Positions 19,828 to 45,164 of a DNA stretch of 45,321 nt are shown in pieces (positions within the stretch are counted from its first letter, which is position 1; the number at the start of each line of letters is the position of its first letter). Under the pieces are notes generated by a model. The model ran no database searches. It saw only the letters and a list, made by a program, of their open reading frames with translations, and had not been told where the DNA came from. Source of the DNA: Mycoplasmataceae bacterium. Its GTDB lineage: Bacteria; Bacillota_I; Bacilli_A; Mycoplasmatales; Mycoplasmoidaceae. Where the stretch lies: contig JAIRKU010000002.1 in assembly GCA_031259945.1 (NCBI GenBank), forward strand, positions 1 to 45,321, in the 5' to 3' direction. The translations under genes and the position numbers were made by a program.

Positions 19828-20010
19828 TTGACATTTCTATTATTTTATGATATAAACTAACCATTAATTTAAAGGGATTAAGAGAGAGAACAGCGATGCT
19901 GTTTCTGTGCTTTTATTTTTAAATGTTTCCTAAGCAAGGATTTAGCGCTAGCTGGTCTTTGCTTTTTATTTGATATTTAGTTTACAAAAACTACTCAACA
20001 AGGAGATATT
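19828..20010 (+). promoter_or_regulatory. Surface-gene 5' leader, copy 1: promoter, GA tract, hairpin, terminator-like hairpin
   Basis: A near-consensus promoter is visible: TTGACA (19828-19833), 17-nt spacer, extended -10 TGaTATAAA (19848-19856). The leader then contains (GA)4 (19882-19889), the hairpin acagc-gat-gctgt, an A/T-rich linker, and a 9-bp stem (19932-19940 with 19956-19964, one G-U pair) followed by T5. After this terminator-like structure comes an aaggag ribosome binding site 7 nt before the ATG at 20011. The same order and similar sequence recur at 27874-28030 and, on the minus strand, at 45007-45164. A weak dyad (TAAACTAA near TTAATTTA) overlaps the transcription start. Confidence 0.75.
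19932..19967 (+). terminator. Terminator-like hairpin within leader copy 1
   Basis: Stem aagcaagga/tctttgctt with one G-U pair, a loop of about 15 nt, and T5 immediately after. It lies between promoter and start codon, so it would act as an attenuator. Confidence 0.65.
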
Positions 20011-24707: not shown

Positions 24708-26873
24708 ATGTTAAAGCTAAAGCTTTTATTTACATTAGGCGCTGGAGCGGTACTAGTTGCTACGGAAACATCTAATATTATTAATAACGTTAACACATCT
24801 TTTACAACACATGTTAACAAAATAGATGACATGTTTGACAACTTAAGCGTCACTAGTAAATTTAATAATAACGATCAAACATATAAGTTATCTCCATCTG
24901 TAGTTGGAGGGACGTATAAGTTTATAAAGTCAACTGGTAATTTATCTATTTCTAGAGACGGTACGATTACTTTGCCAAAAGAAACTTTCGCTACCAATGA
25001 ATATATTTTAAATTTTTCTTATACAACAAAACAATCTTCTGATAATTATTCTTTTTCTTGGTTTCTAGATAATAGTGAAGTTCCTGATGTCACTAATTTA
25101 ACAAACACTACGTTTTATGATGGCAAAATTCAAACGTTTAATGGCCTAACCCCAACCATTGCCGGAGGAGAATATACTAGAGTTTCTGCTGATTCGGGTA
25201 TTGACATTGCACTAGATGGAACGGTTACACTAGATGCTACTGCATTACCGCAAGACTATAATCTTAAATTTACTTATAAAGTTAGTTGGTACGAACCAAT
25301 AGAAAAAGATTTTGTGTGACATTTAGAAACTGGTGCGGCACCCGATGTTACCAATTTAACAAACACTACATTTTATGATGGTAAGGCGCAAACATTTAAT
25401 GGTTTAACCCCAACTATTACCGGAGGGAAATATACTAGAGCCTCTGCTGACGCTGGTATTGATATTGCATCCGATGGAACGATTACACTTGATGCTACTG
25501 CAAAACCTAAAGACTACAATCTCAGTTTCACTTATATAGTAAGTGGCTATCAACAAGTGACAAAAGATTTTGTGTGACATTTAGAAACTGGTGTGGCACC
25601 TGATGTTACCAATTTAACAAACACTACGTTTTATGATGGTAAGGTGCAAACATTTAATGGCTTGAAACCAACAATAGCTGGTGGCATATATACCAGGGTT
25701 TCTGCTGACGCTGGTATTGATATTGTATCCGATGGAACAATCAGTCTTGCTTCTACAGCGAAACCAAAAGATTACAATCTTAAATTTACATATACAGTTG
25801 ATGGATATGCTCCGGCGCAAAAAGATTTCGTATGGCATCTAAAAGTGGAAATGGATGGGGTTTTGCTTAAAACAAATGGAACAAAAATTACTTTTAATTC
25901 TTCAAATACACCGATGTCTAATTTCTGCAGTCAGATTGGTGATTTTGTAATTAATAGCCAGAATATTTCAAGGAAAGATATTAAAAATATAAGTTTTGGT
26001 AATTCCTATTTAGCAATCACAGAAGTTGATAACGATTGATTATGATATTGTAGTTCGTTAATATCGATTGACTTTAATGGACTAACAAATTTATTGTCCG
26101 TTGGAGACAATTGATTGTATGGTTGTACTTCGTTAACATCTGTTGACTTTTCTCCATTATCAAATTTAGTTTCCGTTGGTAACGATTGATTAAGCGTTTG
26201 CTCTGCCATAACATCTGTTAATTTTTCTAAATTATCTAAATTAAAATCAGTTGGTAACGATTGATTATTGCAATGTTCGCAGTTGGAAACTATTGATTTT
26301 GGAAAATTAACAAAACTTTCATCTATTGGAAACAATTGATTAGCCGCTTGTAGTTCGTTGACGTCAATTAATTTTAATGGATTAGCTAATCTAACATCAG
26401 TTGGTAACAATTGATTGATTAGTTGTAGTTCATTAATATCGATTGACTTTAATGGATTAACCAATCTAACTTCGGTAGGGGACAGCTGATTGTATGATTG
26501 CAGTAAAATTACAACAATCAATTTTAATGGATTAACAAATCTGTCATCAATTAGTTACGAATGATTACACGGTTGTATTTCACTAACATCAATTGATTTT
26601 AGCGAATTAATAAACCTATCTTCAGTGGGGGACAATTGACTATATGGCTGCACAAATATTCAAACAATTTCAGTAGGTAATATTTCATGAATTGAACGCA
26701 AATTTATTGATTGACATTGAGTTGGTTTTTCAACTACAAATTTCGCTTTAAAATGCCCCAAAAACGGAACTATAAAAGCATCATCTAACGATAACGGTCA
26801 AAAATGAATAAAGGCAGTAGAAGAACAAAAACAAAAAGGAGAAACATGAAACTGAAACGTGGTTTTATCGTAA
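24708..26873 (+). CDS. Repeat surface protein: three 86-aa repeats plus eight LRRs
   Basis: This 721-aa protein has a short hydrophobic N-terminus (MLKLKLLFTLGAGAVLVA) and a divergent copy of the repeat domain. Three tandem 86-residue beta-rich units follow (PDVTNLTNTTFYDGK...KDFVWHL, residues about 126-383) that look Ig-like. Next come a connecting domain (TKITFNSSNTPMSNFCSQIG) and eight 25-residue BspA-type leucine-rich repeats (LTSVDFSPLSNLVSVGNDWL, about 451-650). Every LRR holds a TGA-coded Trp. The true stop is TAA 26871-26873, so the end overlaps the following lipoprotein gene by 28 bp. BspA-type LRR proteins are often adhesins. Repeat number likely varies by recombination with the locus at 28164. 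The start follows the previous stop by 13 nt. Confidence 0.9.
25083..25856 (+). repeat. Tandem array of three 258-bp units
   Basis: Units begin at 25083, 25341 and 25599, exactly 258 bp apart with no indels, each encoding 86 residues. They are interspersed in sequence with the eight units at 28539-30602. Confidence 0.95.
26058..26657 (+). repeat. Eight 75-bp LRR units
   Basis: Eight consecutive 25-codon repeats encode L-S-DF-GL-NL-SVG-WL-CS. The Trp is encoded by TGA in each unit. The spacing of 75 bp was measured between cgtta landmarks at 26056 and 26131. Confidence 0.9.
26838..26841 (+). promoter_or_regulatory. Ribosome binding site fixing the lipoprotein start
   Basis: The sequence aaaaggag just upstream places translation at the ATG 26846, not at an earlier in-frame ATG at 26804 that has no such site. 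It lies inside the coding end of the preceding gene. Confidence 0.6.
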
Positions 26874-27873: not shown

Positions 27874-28163
27874 TGGACATTTTCATTATTTTATGATATA
27901 AACTAAGCGTTAGTTTAAAGGACGAGAGAGAAACAGCAACGTTGTTTTGTATTTTTGATTTTTAAACTATTTTCAAAGCAAGGATTTGACGTTAGCTGAT
28001 CCTTGCTTTTTAATATTTAGTTGAGAGATTTTAACCCAGTAAATGGAATGCTGATTAGTAAATCTGAATTTGTCACGCTTTATGTTGTGTTTAATAAAGT
28101 TGTGCAAACATTGGAACAGTTACCTTTTACGAATAACAAAATATAGAGGAGAAAAAAACAAAT
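27874..28163 (+). promoter_or_regulatory. Surface-gene 5' leader, copy 2, plus remnant of a deleted gene
   Basis: The promoter is TGGACA (27874-27879), 17-nt spacer, TATAAA (27897-27902). A perfect dyad, taaactaa-gcg-ttagttta, overlaps the likely transcription start. (GA)4 is followed by a caacgttg-centred hairpin and the terminator-like stem at 27976-28008. After about 28020 the sequence departs from copy 1. A 27-bp stretch (28110-28136) identical to the last 27 bp of the gene ending at 21456 is followed by a similar aggag ribosome binding site. This indicates that a homologue of the first gene of locus 1 was deleted here, leaving its 3' tip. Confidence 0.75.
27976..28011 (+). terminator. 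Terminator-like hairpin within leader copy 2
   Basis: A perfect 10-bp stem aagcaaggat/atccttgctt with a 13-nt loop, ending in a short T run. It lies about 150 nt before the start codon of the repeat protein. Confidence 0.7.
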
Positions 28164-31100
28164 ATGAAATTAAAAATCTTACTTCTACTATCAGGAATAG
28201 GATCTACAGTGTTTGGTGCAACTGTGCCCATTATTGTTGACAACAATGAAAATATTATGTTGCAAAACAACAACATGATAAATGATATGTTTGATGATTT
28301 GAATACTACTAGTGAATTTGACGGGAATGACCAAACATTTCAATTATTGCCATACATACAAGGAGGAATATATAAATTAATTAATTCGACTGGTAATTTA
28401 TCTATTTCAAAAGATGGTGTGGTTACTTTACCAGGGGCGACTTCAGATTATGGTGAATACATTTTAAATTTTTCTTATATTACAAAATCATTATCTGCCG
28501 ATTATTCTTTTTCTTGAATTTTAAAAACAGACTGAATACCTGATGTTGTCAATCTAACAAACACTACGTTTTATGATGGCAAAATTCAAACATTTAATGG
28601 TTTAACCCCAACTATTACCGGAGGGGAATATACCAGGGTTTCTGCTGATCCGGGTATTGACATTGCACTAGATGGAACGATTACACTTGATGCTACTGCA
28701 TTACCCAAAGACTACAATCTTAAGTTCACTTACACAGTGGACGGATATACTCCGGTACAAAAAGATTTCGTATGACATCTCAATAACGGCAATGCTCCTG
28801 ATGTCACTAATTTAACCAATACAACAAGTTATGATGGTAAGACACAAACATTTAGCGGTTTAAACCCAACAATAGCTGGCGGCATATATACCAAGGTTTC
28901 TGCTGACCCAGAGATTAGCGTCGCATCCGATGGAACAATCAGTCTTGTTTCTACAGCGAAACCAAAAGACTACAATCTTAAGTTCACTTACAAAGTAGAT
29001 GGATATGAACTAGCACAAAAAGACTTCGTATGACATCTCAATAACGGTAATGCCCCCGATGTCACTAATTTAACAAACACTACGTTTTATGATGGCAAAA
29101 TTCAAACATTTAATGGTTTAACCCCAACAATAGCTGGCGGGACATATATTACCGACTATGCAAATGTTGGCATTAGTATTGCAACAAATGGAATAATTAC
29201 GCTAGATGCTACTGCACAACCGAGAGACTATAACATTAGTTTCACTTACTCAGTGAGCGGATATCAATCAGTACAAAAGAACTTCGTATGACATTTGGAT
29301 GCTGGCGTAGCCCCTGATGTTACTAATTTAACAAAAACAACGAGTTATAACGGCAAAACTCAAACGTTTGACGGTTTAGTACCTTCCATTAAAGGAGGCA
29401 TATATGTGCGAACATCAGGCGACGTTGGGATTAACATCACATCCGACGGAACGATTACACTTGATGCTACTGCATTGCCAAAAGATTACAATCTTAAGTT
29501 CACTTACAAAGTAGATGGATATGAACTAGCGCAAAAAGATTTCGTATGACATCTCAATAACGGCAATGCTCCTGATGTCACTAATTTAACAAGCACTACG
29601 TTTTATGATGGTAAGGCACAAACATTTAATGGTTTAACTCCAACAATAGCTGGCGGCATATATACCAAGGTTTCGGCTGACTCAGAGATTAGCATCGCAT
29701 CCGATGGAAAAATCAGTCTTGCTTCTACAGCGAAACCAAAAGACTACAATCTTAAGTTCACTTACACAGTGGACGGATATACTCCGGCACAAAAAGATTT
29801 CGTATGACATCTCAATAACGGCAATGCTCCCGATGTAACCAATTTAGCCAATACAACTACCTATACTGGTAAGGTCCAAACATTTAATGGTTTAAAGCCA
29901 ACCATTGACGGAGGCACATATACGCGAACTTCTGGCGACACTGATATTAGCATCGCATCTAACGGAATAATTACTCTTGCCTCTACTGCAAAACCAAATA
30001 GCTACAATCTTAAGTTCACTTATACAGTGACTGGATACACTCCAGTACAAAAAGATTTCACATGATATTTAAATAATGCTATCGCTCCCGATGTCACTAA
30101 TCTAACTAACACATCAAAGTATAACGGTAAAGCTCAAACATTTAATGGTTTAACACCTACCATACTTGGCGGTGTATACGGTAGAATTTCGGCAGATGCT
30201 GGTATCGATATCGCATCCGATGGTACAATTACTCTTGCGCCTACTGCATTACCAAAAAAATATGAAATTCATTTTTTCTATTTGGTAGATAATTGTGCAT
30301 CTGTGGAAAAAGATTTCGTATGAAATCTCAATAACGGCAATGCCCCCGATGTCACAAATCTAGATAATACAACAGATTACAACGCTCAAACCCAAACATT
30401 TAATAGTCTAACCCCAACTATTACCGGAGGGGAATATACCAGGGTTTCTGCTGACCCAGAGATTAGTATTGCATCCGATGGAACAATTACACTTGCAGCA
30501 ACCGCACAACCCAAAGACTATAACCTTAAATTTACTTATAAAGTAGATGGATATGAACCGGTACAAAAGAATTTCGTATGACATTTAAAACCTACTAACA
30601 TTGATGGGACTTTACTTACAACTGATGGAACAAAAATTACTTTTAATTCTTCCAATACACCAATGTCTAATTTCTGTAGTCAGATTGGTGATTTTGTAAT
30701 CAATGGGCAAAGTATTTCTAGAACAAAAATTGTTAGTGTAAGCTTTGGCAAAACCTATTCAGAAATTACAAAAGTTGATGACAATTGGTTTTGAGGTTGT
30801 AGCTCATTAACGTCAATCAATTTTAGTGGATTAGCTAATCTAGCATCAGTTGGTAATTATTGACTATACAAATGTAAATCTTTAACATCTGTTGACTTTT
30901 CTCCATTATCAAATTTAGTTTCAGTTGGTAATGAATGATTAAATGGGTGTTCTACAATTACTTCTGTTAACTTTTCTAAATTATCTAAGCTTGAATCCGT
31001 GGGTGACGATTGATTAATATCATGTTCGATGCTTCAATCGGTAACATTTAAAGATTTAGTAAATCTATCATCTGTCAAAAATAATTGATTGGCTGATTGT

Positions 31101-31601
31101 ACTTCATTAACATCAATTGACTTTAATGGGTTAACTAAATTAACGACAGTTGGTGATAACTGATTGCTTAATTGTACTTCATTAACATCAGTTGATTTTA
31201 GTGCCATAACCAATCTAACGTCGGTTCGCAATTCTTGATTGTATGGTTGCATTGGATTAACATCAATAAACTTTGGTGCATTAACTAATTTATCAACCAT
31301 TGGCTATGAATGGTTATCTGGTTGTACTTCACTAACATCAATTGATTTTAGTAAACTAATAAATCTATCATCGATTGGTGATAACTGATTAAGCGGTTGC
31401 ACTTCGCTTAATTCTATTTCAGTTGGTAATATTTCATGAATTCCACGGAAAATGGTTGAATTTGTTTGAGTTGGTTTTTCTGATACTAATTTTGCTTCAA
31501 ATTGTTCTAATAGTGGGGATTTGGTATGCTCATCAACCGATATCGGTAATGGCTGAAAAAATGGGGGGACACTTAAATGAAATATAGTTACTCCAGAGTA
31601 A
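28164..31601 (+). CDS. Repeat surface protein: eight 86-aa repeats plus eight LRRs
   Basis: This 1145-aa paralogue of the protein at 24708 has the same plan. The signal-type N-terminus is MKLKILLLLSGIGSTVFGA, followed by a divergent first repeat domain. Eight tandem 86-residue beta-rich units follow (about residues 126-813), then the shared connecting domain (TDGTKITFNSSNTPMSNFCSQ) and eight 25-residue BspA-type LRRs (about 882-1081). More than 20 TGA codons encode Trp, mostly at the FVWHL end of each unit and in each LRR. The stop is TAA 31599-31601, overlapping the next lipoprotein start by 25 bp. Preceded by agaggag. Probably surface-exposed and size-variable. Confidence 0.92.
28539..30602 (+). 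repeat. Tandem array of eight 258-bp units
   Basis: Units start at 28539, 28797, 29055, 29313, 29571, 29829, 30087 and 30345. Every interval is exactly 258 bp. Neighbouring units differ by mosaic patches such as NNGNAPDVTNLTNTT versus DAGVAPDVTNLTKTT. Confidence 0.95.
30807..31406 (+). repeat. Eight 75-bp LRR units in the second repeat protein
   Basis: Eight 25-codon BspA-type leucine-rich repeats, the same number as in the paralogue at 26058-26657. Each has a Trp, encoded by TGA, in the WL position. Confidence 0.9.
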
Positions 31602-38039: not shown

Positions 38040-38117
38040 GGCGTCTATGGCGAAGCTGGCTAACGCACCTGACTGTGACTCAGGCACTCATGGGTTCAAG
38101 TCCCATTAGACGCCCCA
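38040..38117 (+). tRNA. tRNA-His (GTG anticodon)
   Basis: A 78-nt cloverleaf including the His-specific G(-1) that pairs with C73. Acceptor GCGTCTA/TAGACGC; anticodon stem cctga/tcagg around CTGTGAC gives GTG; T arm ATGGGTTCAAGTCCCAT; CCA is encoded. It ends about 14 nt before the TPP aptamer. Confidence 0.94.
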
Positions 38118-38130
38118 TTGAAAATTTTAA

Positions 38131-38206
38131 ACAGGGGTACTAATCTTAAGATTAGTTGAGAAACACCCTTAAACCTGATCAAGTTAAAACTTGCGGAGGG
38201 AGTTCA
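38131..38206 (+). ncRNA. TPP riboswitch (THI element) aptamer
   Basis: The conserved blocks are in order: GGGGT...GTTGAGA (38134-38161), ACACCC (38164-38169), the core ACCTGATC (38173-38180) and TGCGGAGGGA (38192-38201). TPP binding normally lowers expression of thiamine uptake or synthesis genes. The expression platform is the adjacent terminator. The gene downstream is a thiamine transporter component, matching the ligand. Confidence 0.93.
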
Positions 38207-38218
38207 ACATTTTGAATA

Positions 38219-44145: not shown

Positions 44146-45006
44146 TTATTGGTTTATTGGTAATCTTATGTTGTCAAACCCTATGATAGGTACATTGGAT
44201 CATGATTTTTTGTAAGAAGAAAAATCAAGTGAAACCTCTGAATTATAAGAAAAGATAAAATCCAAATAAAATGATGTGTCAACTGTACTATTAGTAATCT
44301 TTACATTATTACCTTTTCAAATTTCCTTATCTTCGTCATCGTTTGCCACATAATAAGCTTTCGTTATAGATGTTGCAAAGGTGCTTTTAGTATGAAGAAT
44401 AATTTCTAAAACACTATTTGGCATGATTTCAATATTACCAAATCAACATTTTTCGACAAAATTGAAAGATAAGAATAAATATATATCGAATTCATTGGGA
44501 TTAGTCATTCTAATGAATTCAACATTTAAAGCATTTGTTCAATCAGTATGCACTGCTTCTTTTATTGTCATTGTAGGATCAGCGTCTGTTGTTTTAGAAA
44601 GTAATGGCTTGTCCAATAAATGCTTACAATAATCAACTATTGAATCTAGTAAATTAATTGGCTTGTAATTATTTTTAAAAAAATTTATTATTCGTTGATC
44701 ATCCGGATTTAAATTACTAAAATCTTCATTTTTATGATTGGATTGAAATTGTCAATTTTCTATTTCATTTACTGAATAATGTTTGTCAATGATATCGTTT
44801 GTGTAGGTATGTCAAATACCATAACCCACTCCTATACCACCACCAACGCCAATAATAACAGCACTAGTAGCGATTAATACTTTTATTTTCTTCCTACGGT
44901 TTCATATCTTATGTTGCTTAGCTGTTAAAACGTTATTATGTGAATTAGAAAATTCACCATTTTGTTTTCTAAATTTGATTGCTTCTGTTTGACTCTTTGT
45001 TTTCAT
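44146..45006 (-). CDS. Exported surface protein, third leader-controlled gene
   Basis: This 286-aa protein is visible with TGA as Trp (seven codons). A basic, hydrophilic N-terminus of about 40 residues (ending RRKKIK) precedes one hydrophobic Gly/Val-rich segment (about 43-64) without lipobox, so the protein is anchored by an uncleaved signal with the C-terminal ~220 residues outside. The exported part has NEIENWQFQSNHKNEDFSN and beta-rich segments and is not recognised. It shares a 5' leader, not sequence, with the surface genes at 20011 and 28164. The aggag ribosome binding site lies 7 nt before the ATG. The stop is 22 nt from the lepA stop (convergent). Confidence 0.75.
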
Positions 45007-45164
45007 ATTTTATCTCCTATTGATTAGTAACAACAAAAAAAACAAGAACTAGCAAATGCTAAATTCTTGCTTTTAAGAAAAGCTAAAGCGTCAAGAGCAA
45101 CTAAGTTGCTCTCTCTCTCTCTCTCTCTTGTGTTGATCATGTTAAAATTAATGTAATACTTATA
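45007..45164 (-). promoter_or_regulatory. Surface-gene 5' leader, copy 3, with (GA)10 tract
   Basis: On the minus strand: candidate -10 TATAAG (45159-45164), (GA)10 (45109-45128), hairpin gagcaac-tta-gttgctc, a T-rich linker and a terminator-like hairpin (45035-45071: caagaa...ttcttg with an inner tagca/tgcta stem and a run of eight T). An aggag ribosome binding site and ATG follow. Order, spacing and the motif aagcaag-atttagc match copies 1 and 2, but the GA tract has ten units instead of four. Confidence 0.75.
45035..45071 (-). terminator. Terminator-like hairpin within leader copy 3
   Basis: Outer stem caagaa/ttcttg, inner stem tagca/tgcta, then T8 on the minus strand. It is upstream of the coding region, so it is read as an attenuator. 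Confidence 0.65.

Follow-up and report, generated by a model that had tools for sequence, protein, structure and literature searches.

A dinucleotide repeat as the candidate switch of a phase-variable leader-peptide attenuator before mycoplasma surface genes

Background

Why does a long dinucleotide repeat stand in the leader of a surface-type gene in a mycoplasma, and what could a change in its length do to that gene? The repeat lies near one end of the 45,321-nucleotide stretch of Mycoplasmataceae DNA analysed here (the window), and a first-pass annotation had proposed that it is a phase-variable element acting within the transcript, through the folding of the leader. The first two parts of that reading, phase-variation candidate and action within the transcript, held up on closer analysis, and the folding mechanism did not. 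We propose that the GA repeat is the switch of a phase-variable leader-peptide attenuator, with tract length setting the reading frame, a reading that the sequence comparisons below make quite probable.

The logic of such a switch is known from the pili of S. gallolyticus. In pil1, 22+3n GCAGA repeats end the leader peptide far before a terminator and expression is low, while other repeat numbers extend the peptide to or into the terminator and expression is high; across pil1 and pil3, expression is low when the stop lies 28 nt or more ahead of the terminator and high when it lies just before or inside it, and removing the ATG or the terminator of pil1 gave the predicted effects (Danne et al. 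2014; PMC3894217). Control of a terminator by a repeat within a leader peptide was found in the open-access literature searched only for these pili and for no mycoplasma, absence from that literature being no proof. What would be new here is a dinucleotide version of the pil1 logic, used as a multi-copy cassette in a mycoplasma genus.

The leader in the window

The tract at 45109–45128 is a perfect (CT)10 on the plus strand, that is, (AG)10 on the coding minus strand, which bears out the ten units originally counted; in the register common to the family, ACACAA(GA)nGCAAC, it reads n = 9. The motif GAGAGAGA occurs eight times in the window, six of them inside the tract, where shuffling expects 0.34. 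Upstream lies a -10-like box, TATAAG (45159–45164, minus strand, as are all parts of this leader), with no clear -35, and a sigma-70 scan reported no two-hexamer promoter at the window leader. Since the tract begins about 30 nt downstream of this box, it falls within the predicted transcript, in agreement with the annotation, which had placed it in the transcribed leader and not in promoter spacing. Three features had been overlooked: an ATG (45140–45138) without a Shine-Dalgarno sequence, in an open frame with the tract and predicted to start a leader peptide; a terminator hairpin (45074–45035); and the many other copies of the leader described below.

Hairpin 1 (45113–45093), with 9 bp, a UUA loop and a predicted energy of −11.1 kcal/mol (z −2.5), adjoins the tract, as had been noted, and contains an early stop codon. 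It is followed by a spacer (45075–45092) that is pyrimidine-rich here and in related leaders, and by a premature intrinsic terminator (45035–45074; −15.1 kcal/mol, z −5.6) with a stem at 45074–45038 and a T-run at 45042–45035. None of 200 shuffles was as stable as the terminator hairpin, and eight T follow its stem; a simple terminator scan of the window did not report it, probably because of a bulge in the stem. Beyond it lie the Shine-Dalgarno sequence AGGAG (45014–45018) of the structural gene and the gene itself, the predicted target (44146–45006), which encodes a 286-aa protein with an N-terminal hydrophobic segment. This protein has no Pfam match, and its N-terminus is common to proteins behind other leader copies.

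The first stops after the tract fall at +6, +34 and +83 in the three frames, with the terminator stem beginning at +35 and the T-run reaching +74. The +6 stop is a TAG within hairpin 1 (45101–45103), 29 nt ahead of the terminator stem, and is used when n = 1 mod 3, the class predicted to be OFF; the +34 stop is a TAA at the edge of the terminator (45073–45075), used when n = 2 mod 3 and predicted to leave the gene ON or intermediate. With n = 9, the window copy is read in the +83 frame: its predicted leader ORF (45024–45140), MINTRERERESNLVALDALAFLKSKNLAFASSCFFCCY, runs through the terminator to a TAA at 45026–45024, so that this copy is predicted to be ON. Because the unit is 2 nt long and not a multiple of three, every gain or loss of a unit shifts the frame.

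Two other leaders in the window had been described as carrying (GA)4, and both were found on the plus strand, one with a hairpin and a terminator-like hairpin (19882–19967) and the other with a hairpin and a terminator (27924–28011), the latter before a gene for a BspA-type LRR protein (28164–31601). Both of these terminator-bearing leaders precede surface-type genes; in each, a start codon is absent from the interval between -10 box and tract, and there is neither a leader ORF nor an early stop. That leaders with so short a tract lack both the leader start and the early stop was counted in favour of a frame switch.

Copies of the leader in the same genome

The genome to which the window belongs is an 88% complete draft of 848 kb in 28 contigs. 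Searched with the 171-nt leader, it showed 19 matching places at E < 1e-8, with 75–100% identity. Thirteen copies carry a start codon and a tract, with n ranging from 3 to 20 in the draft assembly and with near-identical flanks in several cases, and four additional contigs start or finish within a leader copy. Copies 82–96% identical to the window leader have n = 7, 10, 10, 11, 14, 15, 17 and 20, against 9 in the window. Such differences among close copies are as expected for a slipping repeat, making the tract a candidate for phase variation in a surface-gene leader, as first suggested. By count, all tracts of (GA)6 or longer in the genome belong to this leader family, whose places account for the 111 matches of the 12-mer, 100 of them listed singly. 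The proteins encoded behind the leaders include lipoproteins, membrane-anchored proteins with a common N-terminus and one BspA-type LRR protein. Two copies have decayed: C12a (contig C12, near 15546) has (GA)4 and no terminator, and a remnant near position 160 of contig C7 is followed by a long (CA)n array.

Leaders in related species

Of 36 genomes of the genus, 7 matched a pattern combining the tract with a CAAG...CTTG terminator, while none of 59 from other genera of the family did; the same pattern run backwards gave no matches. Long GA tracts were also searched for and about 140 loci inspected, which brought in leaders with different terminators from G009, G029, G032, G033 and G034; the G029 leader runs on into a long coding frame and has the weakest claim to belong to the set. 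The final set, assembled by hand from GA-tract matches in draft assemblies, comprises 53 leaders from 12 species of the genus; one candidate (G081a) was left out, its downstream hairpin resembling part of a tRNA. Those relatives that have names are uncultured Mycoplasmataceae, represented mostly by metagenome bins, and several of these bins presumably come from termite guts.

These leaders share one layout, consisting of a -10 box, a start codon, a dinucleotide tract, an early stop usually placed in hairpin 1, a pyrimidine-rich spacer and an intrinsic terminator, with only 59–81 nt between the end of the tract and the T-run. The gene downstream usually encodes a lipoprotein or membrane protein. 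Other targets also occur: a leader in G010 (L329, C11:6900–8100) precedes a zinc-dependent alcohol dehydrogenase-like gene (PF08240, PF00107), which is metabolic and not a surface gene, and ATG-(GA)n-hairpin leaders precede DNA methyltransferase or restriction-type genes in G032 (L382) and in G033 and G034 (L384–L387). The latter two genomes have a Shine-Dalgarno-like AGGAGG ahead of the hairpin and the gene's ATG directly after the T-run, so the hairpin there could additionally affect translation initiation. Across the remainder of the family, GA tracts are for the most part found within ordinary long ORFs or close to where these begin. About a dozen CT/GA-tract loci near the start of small ORFs in G015 (L340–L354) are apparently coding contingency loci.

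In a sister species (G019, L362–L366), a (TC)7–12 tract occupies the same layout as the (GA)n leaders. Here the -10 box is followed by ATG CAA AAC or ATG CAA AGC, the (TC)n tract and an early stop at +1 or +8, with a CAAG...CTTG terminator at three of four loci, and the genes downstream encode lipoproteins and other small proteins. A change of repeat sequence with the layout intact can be explained by a reading-frame switch and not by purine binding or GA-specific pairing. Leaders with an (AC)n tract were sought and not found. A further (TC)n copy lies at L174:5888, and one (TC)n copy stands directly downstream of lepA; the L174 leader beside lepA, which belongs to another genome, was considered as an ortholog of the window leader and rejected, its orientation relative to lepA being opposite.

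Conserved start codon and early stop

If frame matters, a start codon ahead of the tract and an early stop behind it should be more frequent than chance provides. Of 28 upstream sequence clusters, 24 have an open ATG at most 32 nt ahead of the tract, where base composition, or windows lying further upstream, would predict 34–40% (binomial P ~7e-7, for clusters that come from related species and are hence not fully independent), and the remaining four clusters have GTG in its place. The clusters were formed without gaps; a gapped aligner put almost all sequences into one group, and that clustering was set aside. Upstream of the start codon, a -10-like hexamer with at most one mismatch is present in 49 of 50 leaders, 4–30 nt away (median 18 nt). 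An SD-like motif at the leader start was found in only one of the 50, while the structural gene of the window has one. With 49 leader starts lacking it, initiation would have to be leaderless or SD-independent.

At least one frame stops 14 nt or more before the terminator in all 24 spacer clusters, whereas 1000 shuffles gave a mean of 12.3 clusters and a maximum of 19; the role of early stop shifts between frames as sequences diverge. A frame that stays open into the terminator was also considered as evidence and proved uninformative, since chance alone provides one in about 23 of 24 clusters, which leaves the start codon and the early stop as the only features with statistical weight. Of the 51 leaders whose start is known, 31 stand in an early-stop frame, whereas random n would give 22.3 (P 0.0075, uncorrected for relatedness).

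These figures bear on the alternative that the leaders are relics spread by duplication or recombination, with a slippage-prone but neutral tract and no switch. The many copies 82–96% identical to the window leader fit such a history, as do the decayed ones; neutrality sits poorly with a start codon and early stop kept in divergent leaders of 12 species and with the same design before genes as unrelated as DNA methyltransferases and the zinc dehydrogenase, and we consider a relic unlikely.

Predicted folding and tract position

The annotation had proposed that tract length acts through leader folding. In the form considered here, the tract would extend hairpin 1 or pair with the spacer, and the length of the resulting helix would decide whether the terminator forms. 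The tract and spacer do pair in the predicted fold, the expected number of pairs being 3.7 with n = 2 and 15.2 with n = 12, and the spacer is pyrimidine-rich in relatives too. This pairing saturates by n ~12, however, yet n reaches 20, and at n = 4, 7, 9, 12 and 20 hairpin 1 has a predicted probability of 0.98–0.99 and the terminator a mean pair probability of 0.89–0.91, so that both are nearly constant and the terminator forms at every length tested. A (TC) tract takes the same place in G019, and folding leaves the conserved ATG and early stop unexplained; we regard length-dependent folding as very improbable. RNAalifold on a MAFFT alignment of the leaders returned no consensus structure, owing to the differing lengths of hairpin 1 and its resulting misalignment, and leader structures were judged singly instead.

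The other mechanism with a mycoplasma precedent is that of M. gallisepticum vlhA, in which a GAA tract about 40 nt upstream of the transcription start must have 12 repeats (PMC6258824). The analogy, drawn at the outset, stands as a general likeness, both being mycoplasma surface lipoprotein families with a variable purine repeat for each gene. Applied to the window leader, it would have a protein recognise a particular tract length in DNA or RNA, as a spacing or binding switch. The position speaks against this, the tract here lying downstream of the -10-like box and hence of the predicted start, within a leader ORF whose variable is length modulo three; moreover, (TC)n substitutes for (GA)n in the sister species, and no common n emerges among copies ranging from 3 to 20. 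This was the least probable of the explanations considered.

A model for the switch

The layout, the frames, the length differences between copies and their conservation are features of the DNA itself, and from them we infer where transcription starts, that the leader is translated, that the tract slips in cells and that the frame affects termination, in the following way. The transcript would begin just downstream of the -10 box, and a ribosome would initiate at the ATG 13 nt ahead of the tract and read the tract as Arg-Glu repeats. Slipped-strand mispairing would alter n, and n modulo 3 would fix the frame beyond the tract. With n = 1 mod 3, the peptide would stop at the TAG in hairpin 1, leaving the terminator free to form and the gene OFF. 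With n = 0 mod 3, as in the window, the frame is open past the terminator to a stop just ahead of the Shine-Dalgarno sequence of the gene, and the translating ribosome would disrupt the terminator and turn the gene ON. With n = 2 mod 3, a ribosome stopped at the base of the terminator would cover it too, leaving the gene ON or intermediate. Hairpin 1 may make the polymerase pause, which would give the ribosome time to close up on it.

It is also reasonably likely, though we hold this less firmly, that dinucleotide-driven leader-peptide attenuators operate at many loci genome-wide in Mycoplasmatota, one cassette design standing before many unrelated genes. The cassette would comprise a promoter, an SD-less leader ORF with a slipping tract, an early stop and a terminator, and its targets would be lipoproteins, membrane and LRR proteins, DNA methyltransferases and a dehydrogenase. 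If so, each gene would be an independent ON/OFF switch working through transcription-translation coupling, with the same logic repeated as a cassette across a genus of small-genome bacteria, and a dozen or more such switches per genome could give a large combinatorial repertoire of surface states. Under the model, the sequence by itself would tell which genes are ON, and the loci would be natural reporters for transcription-translation coupling in mycoplasmas.

Comparison with known systems

The window element resembles pil1 and pil3 in having a short tandem repeat within a leader-peptide ORF between a promoter and a premature intrinsic terminator, in a frame that decides between a stop well before the terminator and one reaching it (here predicted), and in surface structures as targets. 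As in pil1, where 22+3n repeats give low expression, one frame class of three is predicted to be OFF. At the sequence level, the element shares with pil1 a repeat within a leader ORF that has a start codon to itself, a unit that is not a multiple of three, a premature terminator, and early and late stop frames, which together suggest an attenuator function. The exception is a recognisable leader ribosome-binding site, a pil1 trait that would be dispensable if initiation is SD-independent. The repeat also differs, being the dinucleotide GA, or TC in one species, instead of a pentamer, and the first hairpin here contains the early stop. There are a dozen or more loci per genome, against two described in S. 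gallolyticus, and the host belongs to Mycoplasmatota, in which the element also precedes restriction-modification genes and one metabolic gene.

Coding-sequence contingency loci, with dinucleotide tracts near the start of an ORF, are similar in that slippage would change a reading frame; here it is a short leader peptide, distinct from the main product, whose frame would change, and the structural gene retains its own start and ribosome-binding site. Ribosome-mediated attenuators such as the trp and his leaders combine a leader peptide, a first hairpin and a terminator, all of which are predicted in the window leader. Unlike them, it lacks a regulatory run of codons for a single amino acid and shows no clear antiterminator, and its input would be the repeat number in the DNA.

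Other features of the window

An Rfam scan of the window gave only tRNA and TPP matches and no known RNA family for the leader; the tRNA and, within 10 nt of it, the TPP riboswitch lie at 38041–38218, both as gathering matches. Large ORFs of the window contain 258-bp tandem repeats, with about three copies at 25083–25828 and about eight at 28551–30584, and these ORFs also carry 75-bp LRR-type repeats.
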